A DNA stretch of 38,081 bases from Bacteroidota bacterium (GTDB taxonomy: Bacteria; Bacteroidota; Bacteroidia; 2-12-FULL-35-15). The stretch is from NCBI GenBank assembly GCA_023251805.1, contig JAHEYB010000004.1, positions 1 to 38,081 of the forward strand, given 5' to 3'. Positions 20,930-26,324 of the stretch are shown in pieces. A program made the translations under genes and the position numbers. The notes under the pieces were generated by a model. The model saw nothing but the letters and a program-made list of their open reading frames with translations. It was not told the origin of the DNA and made no database searches. The first letter of the stretch is position 1, and every line of letters starts with the position of its first letter.

Positions 20930-22039
20930 TTATTTCTTTTTGTTTATTAAGCTCAACACTTCATTAGCTATTACCATTGCCGAGTCCTGAAAAGCAAATT
21001 TTCCAATATTTTCGGAAAGTTTAAAGCATTTTTCCGAGTCGTTTATCAATTCTAACGTTTGTACACACAATTTTTCTTTTGCATCAACATCCTTTAATAT
21101 CACAGCTGCATTGTATGTTACTAAAGCCATTGCATTTTTTGTTTGGTGATCTTCGGCAACATTCGGAGACGGAATTAGAATACAGGGTTTTTTTACCAAG
21201 CATAATTCTGAAACAGAGCTTGCTCCTGCTCTAGAAATAACCAAATCGGAAACAGCATAAGCATAATCCATTTTTTGAATAAAGTCGAATGCTTTGATTC
21301 CTTTTCCTTCGTATTTTAAAACTGCTCGTTTTGCTGTTTCATAAAACCCTTTACCTGTTTGCCAAATCAATTGAATATTATTTTTTTCAAACGATTCCAA
21401 GCACTTGATAATACTTTCGTTAATCGTTCTAGCGCCCAAGCTTCCTCCTATAACAAGGATGTTTTTTTTATCTCTACTTAACCCAAAATATTCAATCCCT
21501 CTTTCTCTTTTTCCATCCAAACTCAAAATATCTTGCCGAACAGGATTTCCAGTCAAAAGAATTTTTTCTTTAGGAAAATACTTTTCCATTCCGGCATAAG
21601 CAACACAAATACGGTCGACTTTTTTGGAAAGTATTTTATTGGTAATTCCCGGGTATGAATTTTGTTCTTGTACCAGTGTTGCTACTCCATTTTTTGCTGC
21701 AACTTGCAACATTGGTCCGCTCGCAAACCCACCAGTACCAATAACTGCGTCAGGTTTAAACGTTTTTAATATTTTTTTGGCTTTCATCAAACTGCTAATC
21801 ACTTTAAAGGGAAAAGCCAAGTTTGACATTGATAATTTTCTTTGAAAACCAGAAATCCAAAGCCCTTCAATGTTATATCCAGCCGCTGGAACTTTTTCCA
21901 TTTCCATTTTTCCTTCGGCACCAACAAATAAAAATTCAGTATCCGGACGTAAACTTTTTATAGCATTCGCAATGGCAATGGCCGGAAAAATATGTCCGCC
22001 TGTTCCTCCTCCACTTACAATAATTCTAAGCGACTGCAA
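20930..22039 (-). CDS. murG: UDP-GlcNAc : lipid I GlcNAc transferase
   Basis: GT28 glycosyltransferase that converts lipid I to lipid II on the inner face of the membrane. The 369 residues show the N-domain loop SGGGTGGHIFPAIAIANA, GTGGFASGPMLQ, VQEQNSYPGITNK, the second glycine loop GGSLGARTIN, and the donor site VISRAGASSVSELC. The start is most likely TTG 22039, within the ftsW 3' end (14-nt overlap), since no ATG precedes the glycine loop. It is followed directly by murC. Confidence 0.95.
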   Translation of the reverse strand: MQSLRIIVSGGGTGGHIFPAIAIANAIKSLRPDTEFLFVGAEGKMEMEKVPAAGYNIEGLWISGFQRKLSMSNLAFPFKVISSLMKAKKILKTFKPDAVIGTGGFASGPMLQVAAKNGVATLVQEQNSYPGITNKILSKKVDRICVAYAGMEKYFPKEKILLTGNPVRQDILSLDGKRERGIEYFGLSRDKKNILVIGGSLGARTINESIIKCLESFEKNNIQLIWQTGKGFYETAKRAVLKYEGKGIKAFDFIQKMDYAYAVSDLVISRAGASSVSELCLVKKPCILIPSPNVAEDHQTKNAMALVTYNAAVILKDVDAKEKLCVQTLELINDSEKCFKLSENIGKFAFQDSAMVIANEVLSLINKKK

Positions 22040-23174
22040 GCTCTCCTCCTTCCTGAGAAACTTCTGTTTCTCTGCTCACACTCAAAATAATTCCGATAGA
22101 AATGCTGGTAAACCAAATGGATGTTCCTCCCATACTAATCAAAGGCAAGGGTTGTCCGGTTACTGGAAATAAATTTACAGCAACAGCCATATTAATCATG
22201 GCTTGAAAAACCAAACTAAATGTTAGGCCAATGGCAAGCAAACTGCCAAATGTTCGTTCGCTTTTATTAGCAATTCGCACTCCTCTAAAAAGCAATACTA
22301 TATATAAGAATACTATAATGACTGCAGTAATTAATCCCCATTCTTCAATGAGGATTGCAAAAATAAAATCGGAGGATGCCTGTGGCAAAAAATTACGAGA
22401 AATACTATTTCCAGGGCCTTGAGGAACAATGCCTCTGGCAATGGCAATTTTGGCTTGTTCCGCTTGAAAGTTACTTTCGCTATCACCATTCTTAAAATTT
22501 TCGATACGTGCTTTCCAAGTAGTACCTCTTGGAATAGCATTCGGAAAATTCCAAATGATTAAAACAAGTAAAGCAATAAAAACAATTCCTGAAGCAATTA
22601 ACAACCACAAATGTTTTGCATTCATTCGGCCTACAAACATTAATACCAAGCAGGTTAAAAATAATAGTGCAGCTGTAGAAAAATTGGCCGGAAAAATTAA
22701 AGCGCATATTACTACTACAGGAATTATTATTGGCAAAAATCCTTGCTTAAAATCTTTTATTACATCTTGTTTGATAGATAGCATACGCGCCACATAAGCA
22801 ATGAGAGCTAGTTTTGCAAAATCGGATGTTTGAAAAGTTAAGGATGTTCCCGGAATTGCCAACCAACGTGAAGCTTCACCAGCGCTAACACCTTTTAATA
22901 ACGTGTACAATAACAATGGTGCAGCAAGTATAACAGCTATTTGAGATATTCTTGAAAAATAAGAATACTTTACTTTATGAATCAAATACATCAAAAATAT
23001 TCCTGAGCCAACAATAAAAATATGCTTGATTAAATACGAAGCTGTATCACCATTTTTATAACGATATGCCAATGCGACCACAGAGCTGTAAACCACCAAA
23101 ATAGATAAGAGAGACAATAGTAAAACTACTGTCCAAATTACCTTATCGCCCTTTATGTATTTAAATAAATTCAC
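22026..23174 (-). CDS. ftsW: SEDS glycosyltransferase FtsW
   Basis: Septal peptidoglycan polymerase acting with FtsI. The 382 residues are mostly membrane segments. Family motifs: WLAIPGTSLTFQTSDFAKLA in the first third, GRMNAKHLWLLI, and the C-terminal VNLFPVTGQPLPLISMGGTS. The start is GTG 23174 (MNLFKYIKGDKVIW), two nucleotides after the stop of the MurD C-domain gene. It overlaps murG at its 3' end. FtsW is preferred over RodA because of the dcw setting. Confidence 0.95.
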   Translation of the reverse strand: MNLFKYIKGDKVIWTVVLLLSLLSILVVYSSVVALAYRYKNGDTASYLIKHIFIVGSGIFLMYLIHKVKYSYFSRISQIAVILAAPLLLYTLLKGVSAGEASRWLAIPGTSLTFQTSDFAKLALIAYVARMLSIKQDVIKDFKQGFLPIIIPVVVICALIFPANFSTAALLFLTCLVLMFVGRMNAKHLWLLIASGIVFIALLVLIIWNFPNAIPRGTTWKARIENFKNGDSESNFQAEQAKIAIARGIVPQGPGNSISRNFLPQASSDFIFAILIEEWGLITAVIIVFLYIVLLFRGVRIANKSERTFGSLLAIGLTFSLVFQAMINMAVAVNLFPVTGQPLPLISMGGTSIWFTSISIGIILSVSRETEVSQEGGELAVA

Positions 23175-23176
23175 GC

Positions 23177-23686
23177 CTATTTTCTTAAATTTTTAATTAC
23201 ATCCTTAAATTCATTTCCTCTGTTTTTATAATTATCAAAAGAATGGTAACTAGGGCAAGCTGGAGAAAATAAAACTACATCGCCTGACAAAGCGTATGCG
23301 GCCGATATTTGAACTGCTTCTTTAATTGTTGATGCTTTCGCGAAAAGCATTTTGTGTGAGGAATAGCATTTCAAAATTTTATCACTATAATTTCCTAAAT
23401 AAACAACAGCTATCACTTTTTGTTTTATTTGTTGAGAGATAACAGAATAATCATTTTCTCTATCATCACCACCAATAATTAGCACAACAGAAGTTTCTAT
23501 TGCTTCTAATGCATTTCTGGTAGCAGTAAGACGAATCGATTTAGAGTCGTTGATGAAAGCAATCCCATTTATTTCATCTACAAATTCTAATTGATGATCG
23601 TCTTCAGAAGAGCGGACACGATTACGAGACAACAATGCCTGATTTAACTTATCGTGGTAGTTTCGTATTTTATTATTTTCTATCAT
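23177..23686 (-). CDS. Standalone MurD C-terminal domain paralogue
   Basis: A 169-residue protein matching only domain 3 (the amino-acid-binding C-terminal domain) of a Mur ligase. From residue 30 it aligns with the adjacent MurD. I count 34 identities in the 69 columns from DH to LG, then shared SPAC and NRGNEF-type motifs near the end. The ATP domain and UDP-binding domain are absent, so it cannot be a ligase alone. The MurD motif DSKATN reads DSKSIR (47-52) and VDKGNDY reads DDRENDY. These replace the residues equivalent to E. coli Thr321 and Lys348, which contact D-glutamate. SPACAS reads SPACPS. The frame is intact with ATG 23686, 35 nt after murD and 2 nt before ftsW. Either a partial tandem duplicate kept for a new role or a slowly decaying remnant. 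Confidence 0.8.
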   Translation of the reverse strand: MIENNKIRNYHDKLNQALLSRNRVRSSEDDHQLEFVDEINGIAFINDSKSIRLTATRNALEAIETSVVLIIGGDDRENDYSVISQQIKQKVIAVVYLGNYSDKILKCYSSHKMLFAKASTIKEAVQISAAYALSGDVVLFSPACPSYHSFDNYKNRGNEFKDVIKNLRK

Positions 23687-23721
23687 CGTATATAAAATTT
23701 AAATAATACAATCAACTAATT

Positions 23722-25062
23722 TTAAAGTGCACGAACTGCTTGTTTAAATTGAGTTCCTCTATCTTCATAATTTTCGAACATATCAAAACTTGCACAAGCA
23801 GGTGACAACAAAACAGTATCTCCCTTTTTACCAATTTTGTATGATTGTGCAACTGCTTCTTTAGCCGATTTAGCCTCCAAAATAGTTTCCACCATTCCAC
23901 CAAAAGCTTTGATGATTTTTTTATTGTCTGTTCCCAAACAAATGATTGCCTTTACTTTTGATTTAATTAAATCATTCAGCATAGAATAATCATTTCCTTT
24001 GTCGACTCCACCAAGGATAAGTATAACAGGATTGTTCATACTTTCTAGAGCGTACCAAGTAGAATTTACATTAGTTGCTTTTGAGTCGTTAATAAATTCT
24101 ATTCCATGAACATTTCCCACCAATTCTAATCGGTGATCGATGTTGTGAAAATCAGAAAGGCTTTCGCGAATAGTTTCTTTTCTGATTTCTACTAGTTTGC
24201 CGGTAACAGCTGCAGCCATAGAGTTGTAGATGTTGTGTTTTCCTTGTAATGCTAGTTCTTGAATTGTCATAAATAAGGGATTAGTGTTAGGTGTATTTAT
24301 TATTAATTGATTGTTTTCTTTTAAGTATGCTCCTATTTCTACTTCCTTTTTGATAGAAATAGGGTATTGTTTTGCTTTAATATTTTTTGTTTCAATCATT
24401 TTCATTGTCACTTCATCATCGATGCAATAAATAAAAGCATCTAGTTCTGTTTGATTTTGAATGATTCTAAATTTTGAATCAGCATAATTTTCAAGTTTAT
24501 AATCATATCTATCTAAGTGATCAGGAGTGATGTTCAAGAGAATAGCGATATCGGCTTTAAACTCAAACATTCCATCCAACTGAAAACTGCTCAACTCCAG
24601 CACATAAAAATCAAAATCGTTTTCAGCCACCTGCAATGCAAAGCTTTTTCCAACGTTACCAGCAAGACCTACATTTAATCCTGCTTTTTGCATCATGTGA
24701 TATGTCAGCAACGTTGTTGTTGTTTTACCGTTACTTCCCGTAATACAAATATTTTTTGCAGTTGTATATCGTCCAGCAAATTCGATTTCTGATATCACAG
24801 GAATTCCTTTTTTGTGCAAGGCTATAATTAAGTCGGCCTTATCAGGGATGCCCGGACTTTTCACTACTTCATCTGCATTTAATATCAAGTTTTCAGAATG
24901 CTTTTCTTCTTCCCACTTGATTCCATTTTTTGAAAGAACGTTTTTATACTTATCTTTTAATTTTCCTTTATCAGAAAGAAAAACATCAAATCCTTTTTTT
25001 TGTGCAAGTACAGCAGTCCCAACACCGCTCTCGCCACCACCAAGTATGACCAGCCTTTTCAT
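23722..25062 (-). CDS. murD: UDP-MurNAc-L-alanine : D-glutamate ligase
   Basis: Adds D-Glu to UDP-MurNAc-L-Ala. The 446 residues comprise [31 protein letters not shown] loop ITGSNGKTTTTLL (GSNGKTTT 109-116), LNITPDHLDRYDYKLENYAD, and the C-domain motifs FINDSKATN (326-331 for DSKATN), GGVDKGNDY (Lys 355) and SPACASFDMFENYEDRG, all intact. ATG 25062 is chosen over an upstream extension: it begins at the conserved [10 protein letters not shown] and its A is shared with the mraY stop (TAATG), the expected coupling. A separate copy of its C-terminal domain follows. Confidence 0.96.
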   Translation of the reverse strand: MKRLVILGGGESGVGTAVLAQKKGFDVFLSDKGKLKDKYKNVLSKNGIKWEEEKHSENLILNADEVVKSPGIPDKADLIIALHKKGIPVISEIEFAGRYTTAKNICITGSNGKTTTTLLTYHMMQKAGLNVGLAGNVGKSFALQVAENDFDFYVLELSSFQLDGMFEFKADIAILLNITPDHLDRYDYKLENYADSKFRIIQNQTELDAFIYCIDDEVTMKMIETKNIKAKQYPISIKKEVEIGAYLKENNQLIINTPNTNPLFMTIQELALQGKHNIYNSMAAAVTGKLVEIRKETIRESLSDFHNIDHRLELVGNVHGIEFINDSKATNVNSTWYALESMNNPVILILGGVDKGNDYSMLNDLIKSKVKAIICLGTDNKKIIKAFGGMVETILEAKSAKEAVAQSYKIGKKGDTVLLSPACASFDMFENYEDRGTQFKQAVRAL

Positions 25063-26324
25063 TACCTCAACTTTAGCGTAACAATTGTCAATACAGCCAA
25101 CATGATTCCTATGATCCAAAAACGTGAAACAATTTTTGATTCATGCATTCCTAATTTTTGATAGTGATGATGTAATGGTGCCATTTTGAAAAGTCGGTTT
25201 TCGCGAGCGTATTCGATTCCAAATTTTTTCTTCATTCGTTTGAAGTATGCTACTTGCATCATTACTGAAACATTTTCCACTAAAAAAACACCACATAGAA
25301 TAGGAATAAGTAATTCTTTACGAATAGCGATGGCGAAAACAGCAATGATTCCTCCTAATGCCAAGCTTCCTGTATCGCCCATAAATACTTGAGCAGGGAA
25401 AGAGTTGTACCATAAGAAACCAACACATGCTCCAACAAAAGCTGCAATAAAAATTACCAGCTCACCTGAATTTGGGATGTACATAATGTTGAGGTAATCA
25501 GCAAAAACAGTGTTACCGGAAACGTAGGCAAGAATTCCCAACACTACTCCAATAATGGCAGAAGTGCCAGTTGCCAATCCGTCAATTCCATCTGTAATAT
25601 TTGCTCCATTGGAAACTGCGGTGACGATAATAATGACAAAAGGGATAAAAATAATCCAAGCCCATTTTTGATAATTATCTCCTAAGAAGGAAAGCAAGGA
25701 TGAATAATCAAACTCATTGTTTTTAACAAAAGGAATGGTGGTTTTCATTGATTTAGTAGCCTCTTCGGAATAAACTGCTATTTGTGTATTTTGCTCAGAA
25801 GTACTAACTACATCCATTGTAGGAATTTTTCCAGCAAATATTTTTTCTTTCACAACTACTTCATCATTACAATAAAGTGTGATTCCCACAATTAGTCCGA
25901 GACCAATTTGTCCGAGCACTTTAAATTTTCCTGCAAGCCCTGCTTTGTTCTTTTTAAATACTTTGATGTAGTCGTCTAAAAAACCAATTGCACCCAGCCA
26001 AATAGTTGAAAGCAACATGAGGATGATGTATACATTGTGAAGTTTTGCAAACAATAAAGTTGGAATTACAATCGCAGAAAGAATAATTAGTCCGCCCATT
26101 GTAGGTGTTCCTTTTTTCTCTAATTGACCTGTTAGTCCTAAATCACGAACCGTTTCACCTACTTGTTTTCTGTGTAACAAATTAATGATACGCTTACCAA
26201 ACACTAATGAAATTAAAAGCGAACCAATCAATGCCATTGCAGCACGAAAAGAGATGTAATGAAATACTCCTGCTCCGGGTAAATCAAATTGTTTGTCTAA
26301 AAAATCAAATAAGTAGTAGAACAT
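25062..26324 (-). CDS. mraY: Phospho-MurNAc-pentapeptide transferase
   Basis: Integral membrane enzyme that makes lipid I from UDP-MurNAc-pentapeptide and undecaprenyl phosphate. The 420 residues carry [10 protein letters not shown], the metal-binding [44 protein letters not shown], and the C-terminal [15 protein letters not shown]. It is about 60 residues longer than the E. coli enzyme. The extra part is an extramembrane insert (around [16 protein letters not shown] to [13 protein letters not shown]) of a kind usual in this phylum. It starts 17 nt after murE and overlaps murD by one base. Confidence 0.97.

Follow-up and report, generated by a model that had tools for sequence, protein, structure and literature searches.

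MurD is an essential and much-studied drug target. Its third domain has been viewed mainly as the part that moves during catalysis; the same domain carries the D-Glu contacts of the enzyme. MurT of the MurT/GatD pair, a Mur ligase relative that works in a complex, is catalytic and has retained the central ATP domain. Lys348 of MurD is reported to lie near D-Glu, and MurD2, which together with MurL is described from Gamma- and Alphaproteobacteria and actinobacteria, has an Arg at the Lys348 position (PMC8788868). For MurG, binding to MurD has been reported and a role as scaffold of the Mur enzymes proposed (PMC6420597).

A free-standing MurD domain between murD and ftsW

We analysed a window of 38,081 nucleotides, by which we mean the whole stretch of DNA under study. 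A gene for a free-standing MurD domain 3 of 169 aa (hereafter the mini; 23177..23686, minus strand) lies in it between a full-length murD (23722..25062, minus strand) and ftsW (22026..23174, minus strand). The murD stop and the mini start are separated by 35 nt (23687..23721, minus strand), and ftsW follows 2 nt downstream of the mini. As listed, the murD frame reaches 25119 with a TTG start; homology among relatives starts near the ATG at 25062. The upstream neighbour of murD is mraY (25062..26324, minus strand), and murG (20930..22039, minus strand) lies downstream of ftsW. We take these three neighbours to be ftsW, mraY and murG as named, and they served as the BLASTP references for naming neighbours in other loci.

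The mini is MurD domain 3 plus the linker between domains 2 and 3. It scores above the Pfam gathering cut-off for PF02875 (Mur ligase C-terminal domain), with the same fold, which is that of the mobile domain of MurD. Against the NCBIfam murD model TIGR01087 it reaches 137.1 bits, below the cut-off of 211.95. The central ATP-binding domain (PF08245) and the N-terminal domain, both present in the neighbouring MurD, are missing. In the window mini, the positions of E. coli MurD R302, D317, K319, T321 and K348 are taken by Q, D, K, I and R: by alignment, Gln32 (23591..23593), Ile51 (23534..23536) and Arg76 (23459..23461, all on the minus strand) are the equivalents of Arg302, Thr321 and Lys348. 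The first-pass annotation had thus correctly described a gene that encodes only domain 3, with an intact frame 2 nt from ftsW, Ile and Arg in place of Thr321 and Lys348, and no ATP domain. The N-terminal tail (codons 1–29; 23600..23686, minus strand) has a pLDDT below 50 in the model, but R21 and S27 are each found in 114/117 close relatives and D29 in 116/117.

Distribution and gene order

In the window genus, 14 of 36 genomes carry an intact mini without internal stops; 20 have murD (or its end) but no mini, and 2 incomplete genomes gave no match. A survey of the class found a free-standing mini in 81/396 genomes, under 19 family codes by hand count. This total includes two poor f9 members: G323, whose mini has no Pfam match up to E 0.1, and G400, whose second frame (397 aa, stop to stop) overlaps murD. 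The mini was present in f1 (8/18), f4 (3/4), f5 (9/17), f9 (18/19), f10 (6/6), f12 (8/8), f27 (6/7), f31 (2/2), f36 (7/7), f40 (4/18) and f43 (2/2), and in one genome each of f13, f24, f29, f41, f45, f54, f72 and f73; most families in the 396-genome survey do not have it. Six candidates (G040, G116, G243, G249, G281 and G315) were left out of the 81 because they are truncated fragments or belong to other Mur ligases. Given its absence from 20 of the 34 murD-bearing genus genomes and from most families of the class, the mini is dispensable.

No mini was seen among the frames listed for 149 genomes that belong to the phylum's other classes; genomes with a single match were judged on that match count of one, and 2/149 had no match. 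Second matches in G426 and G558 were rejected because they are fragments, lying at the end of a contig or next to a broken MurD frame. Querying a protein database with a single mini sequence returned 203 proteins of 93–296 aa (the best 120 of 203 were listed), some of which may be cut MurD pieces; alignment queries raised the matches to 1110 and 1945, pieces of full MurD included. The close matches come from Bacteroidetes, Bacteroidia, Flavobacteriales, Bacteroidales and Salibacteraceae assemblies, and from these source names we infer that the surveyed class is Bacteroidia. Minis beside ftsW thus occur in many uncultured Bacteroidota. The database names of the protein vary from MurD ligase to hypothetical, glutamate ligase domain-containing and cyanophycin synthetase.

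By coordinates, the mini directly adjoins murD in 79 of the 81 class genomes, with G075 and G284 as the exceptions. The first-pass annotation had proposed a search for recurrence, and the gene recurs in both genus and class. The fetched loci contain a same-strand murD for 64/73 minis (median gap 22.5 nt, range -47 to 577) and ftsW for 65/73 (median gap 17 nt, range -149 to 732), gap values that vary with the start codon chosen. In G075, the sole genome of its family in the sample, a mini-ftsW pair is set apart from mraY-murD and from murG, and murD lies beside mraY and is followed by unrelated genes. The lasting adjacency of the mini to ftsW may be mere inherited gene order.

Some loci hold additional copies. 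Two tandem minis lie between murD and ftsW in G311 (L202 2534-3638). More diverged extra domain 3 copies are found away from murD in L037, L206 and L207 (f4), L189 (f41) and L194 (f45), and those of L206 and L194 are convergent with a gene that we named by eye as aldehyde dehydrogenase-like. An unlinked copy in L162 (G355 C72) opens with a Cys-rich CxxC...CxxC segment and groups with MurD.

Family f72 has the mini without a canonical murD. A short-frame match was obtained in 40/41 genomes, two of them weak, and the order mraY-mini-ftsW with no full murD holds in 21/21 genomes whose fetched locus reaches ftsW. In the nine f72 genomes in which it was classified, the other MurD-like gene lies elsewhere and resembles the window MurD less than it does the MurD2-like part of G284, and Arg occupies position 348 in 5/5 of the MurD2-like proteins aligned. 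This gene and a MurL-like part form a single fused frame in G284, G567, G586 and G596 and are neighbours in G590; in G570, G571, G573 and G583, no MurL was found within the fetched stretch around it. The fusion frames (L204, G284 C12 and others) measure 885–942 aa in the four classified. Glutamate racemase (TIGR00067) was detected in 0/19 f72 genomes versus 10/10 others. A Pfam search of the MurL-like part matched no MurL model; we call it MurL-like because of the order of the fused parts, the lack of a racemase and, as our assumption, its correspondence to the known MurD2/MurL pair. The f72 minis are either orthologues of the other minis or the last domain of a lost murD, and either way the cluster retained a domain 3 without canonical murD.

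Descent and constraint

We built trees of domain 3 sequences from sets of 119, 52 and 64 rows. In the 119-row tree, one branch with moderate support (93/81, below the level that the tree program stars) parts 53 of the 54 minis from 65 MurDs, although few columns and meeting long branches were flagged for this tree and may account for part of the signal that unites the minis. The lone mini on the MurD side is the unlinked G355 copy. AU tests in eight families (f1, f40 and f36 on the 52-row set) rejected a clade of mini and own-family MurD for f1 (p 0.002), f36 (8e-5), f40 (4e-6), f4 (1e-4), f5 (0.024) and f10 (0.027), and did not reject it for f9 (p 0.378) or f12 (p 0.195). The best tree of the 52 rows does not unite the minis, but a single mini clade is not rejected (p 0.486). 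The link of the f72 minis to the others has a support of 45/59 in the 64-row tree.

For 65 of 72 minis, the MurD encoded in the same genome is a more distant match than at least one mini from a different family (G284 of f72, which has no own MurD, was left out). Because a single MurD is here compared with the best match among many minis, we use this as supporting evidence only. The seven minis nearer to their own MurD are 5/5 of f27, 1/7 of f9 and the unlinked G355 copy, and the f12 mini is nearer to some MurDs of other families (61–68%) than to its own MurD (47–50%). Taken together, the branch split, the AU tests and this comparison suggest that most minis seem to come from one old duplication; those of f9, f12, f27 and f72 may have separate histories. 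The first-pass annotation had read the gene as a partial tandem duplication of the local murD and proposed to compare its tree position with the local MurD. A recent duplication of this kind is rejected for f1 by the AU test. Within the genus, presence and absence of the mini need three changes on a tree of 28 genomes, and G018 gives an example of loss, with only 37 aa of the 3' end left as a relic.

Selection was measured as dN/dS by NG86, on the two closest pairs of each family other than f1 unless stated. The 14 closest of the 91 f1 (genus) mini pairs gave 0.05–0.21. In the three closest f1 pairs the mini values were 0.076, 0.061 and 0.105, versus 0.038, 0.046 and 0.060 for the MurD of the same pairs. 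The window's own group of minis is clearly under constraint. The suggestion that a retained but altered domain 3 is under selection in a conserved wall operon thus holds, on recurrence and on these orthologue comparisons, for which the first-pass annotation had called. Its decay scenario (a gene in this genome only, with dN/dS near 1 or stops in relatives) does not: with 14 of 36 genus genomes carrying an uninterrupted mini at such dN/dS values, a decaying murD remnant is rejected for the window genus.

In other families the mini values were 0.03–0.04 (f12), 0.055 (f4), 0.07 (f10), 0.07 (f31, one pair), 0.20–0.22 (f36), 0.22 (f40), 0.26 (f5), 0.42 and 0.11 (f27) and 0.28 and 0.84 (f9), several of these non-f1 pairs having saturated dS. 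Among the ten closest f72 pairs, three of genus g275 gave 0.09–0.12 and the remaining seven 0.15–0.71, several of those at 0.44–0.71 with high dS. Selection is thus weak or uncertain in f9, f27 (one pair), f5 and several f72 pairs. The ratio of divergence in MurD domain 3 to that in domains 1-2 was 0.43 in mini-bearing versus 0.44 in mini-less genus genomes (14 of each), and these equal ratios give no sign that MurD handed over a task; on this comparison we rejected the idea that constraint had moved from domain 3 of MurD onto the mini. Within the genus, the variation of MurD domain 3 is below half that of domains 1-2 (ratio 0.43–0.44); against two other families it is nearly as large (0.81–0.93).

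We numbered the ligand residues of 73 minis and 91 MurDs by alignment to 2wjp_A. MurD has R302, D317, K319 and T321 in 91/91 each and K348 in 90/91. Among the minis, R302 is found in 33/73, D317 in 64/73, K319 in 40/73, T321 in 43/73 and K348 in 10/73, with all five kept in the f12 minis. Positions of the fold are retained: H301 in 67/73, E304 in 71/73, N316 in 71/73, the Pro of SPAC in 73/73 and the last Gly in 70/73. Such loss of ligand residues next to kept fold positions indicates, at the level of sequence, that the mini family as a whole was not maintained as a catalytic part yet kept its fold.

Possible roles and comparison with known systems

Selection on the mini and its persistence in f72 without canonical murD suggest that it probably has a non-enzymatic job. 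Because the catalytic residues drift, the domain is kept without its parent enzyme in f72 and ftsW is its neighbour, a binding module is the best reading. We give about an even chance to the mini being an ancient paralogue of MurD domain 3, without catalytic function, that binds proteins and so acts as an adaptor for the membrane-linked precursor machinery. Behind this reading stand the observed fold, recurrence and gene order, purifying selection in the majority of close pairs, the lost ligand residues and the persistence in f72; protein binding, FtsW or MurG as the partner, and an adaptor rather than an inhibitor are what we infer from them. The mini would have arisen as a domain 3 paralogue in the common ancestor of some lineages of the class. 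MurD domain 3 would carry a docking surface besides its catalytic one, and the mini would keep the docking surface only, holding or sharing a dock with the MraY/MurG/FtsW machinery, most likely on the FtsW/MurG side. FtsW or MurG is our guess from gene order, and the reported binding of MurG to MurD makes it a candidate dock. It is also quite possible, if somewhat less likely than not, that domain 3 has a second, non-catalytic docking role at the division/precursor complex, split off in part of Bacteroidia as a single-domain adaptor that outlives canonical MurD when MurD2/MurL replaces the D-Glu route.

The main rival to an adaptor is a regulator of MurD, a pseudo-domain inhibitor that would bind or compete for the central domain and slow or stabilise the enzyme. 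We consider this unlikely, if well worth weighing. The mini stands beside murD in 79/81 mini-bearing class genomes and has the fold of the mobile domain of MurD, and a protein inhibitor of MurD, MigC, is described from another phylum (PMC12208494). However, Arg302, the molecular handle of the domain movement according to PMC4816537, is lost in 40/73 minis, and f72 keeps the mini without canonical murD, although MurD2 could be bound there. Where MurD is present, the mini may still bind it. A remnant left after an older murD was replaced by a new copy, the alternative raised by the first-pass annotation, is improbable: most close pairs show purifying selection, frames are intact throughout the 19 family codes and a single branch (93/81) has 53/54 minis on one side; the true remnant in the genus, the 37 aa of G018, looks otherwise. 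Recurrence and dN/dS make this alternative unlikely for the window genus, but it could still apply to f12 and f72: the f12 mini is nearer to MurDs of other families (61–68%) than to its own (47–50%), a single clade of f12 mini and f12 MurD is not rejected either (p 0.195), and the f72 mini occupies the usual place of murD, with its link to other minis at 45/59.

A sensor or decoy for D-glutamate (or UMAG) would suit a domain in which the D-Glu contacts of MurD sit. The decoy suggested by the first-pass annotation is nonetheless disfavoured, and we think it very unlikely, because T321, K319, K348 and R302 vary widely among minis and the f72 mini persists where no glutamate racemase was found (0/19 genomes). 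We find it scarcely credible that the mini is a split subunit, a domain 3 acting in trans to complete catalysis with MurD: the two share fold and gene neighbourhood, but the MurDs own an intact domain 3 (91/91 at four positions) and the minis are often without these ligand residues.

A selected, active-site-altered domain 3 beside ftsW, kept where canonical murD is gone, points to a non-catalytic role. Whether Mur enzymes dock at the division machinery is an old question that such a small soluble bait makes directly testable, and sister species with and without the mini offer a natural comparison. Unlike the MurD ligase, the mini has neither substrate nor ATP domain, has replacements at Arg302, Thr321 and Lys348 and falls under the NCBIfam murD cut-off. 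It also lacks the central ATP domain that MurT retains. The likeness to MurD2 of the MurD2/MurL L-Glu pathway is the Arg at the Lys348 position (PMC8788868), but MurD2 is a full ligase, and in f72 the MurD2-like genes lie elsewhere whereas the mini stays in the cluster. The window mini does not qualify as a MurD2, being a single domain, with glutamate racemase present in G000. MigC, the COG0523 inhibitor, resembles it as a separate protein acting on MurD, but is described as a zinc-binding GTPase and not a MurD paralogue (PMC12208494). In the open-licence literature we found no description of stand-alone MurD or Mur ligase domains, of such paralogues or of dcw-cluster duplications. Non-enzymatic paralogues cut from enzymes are known; a version made of a single Mur ligase domain is, as far as the literature was searched, apparently new.
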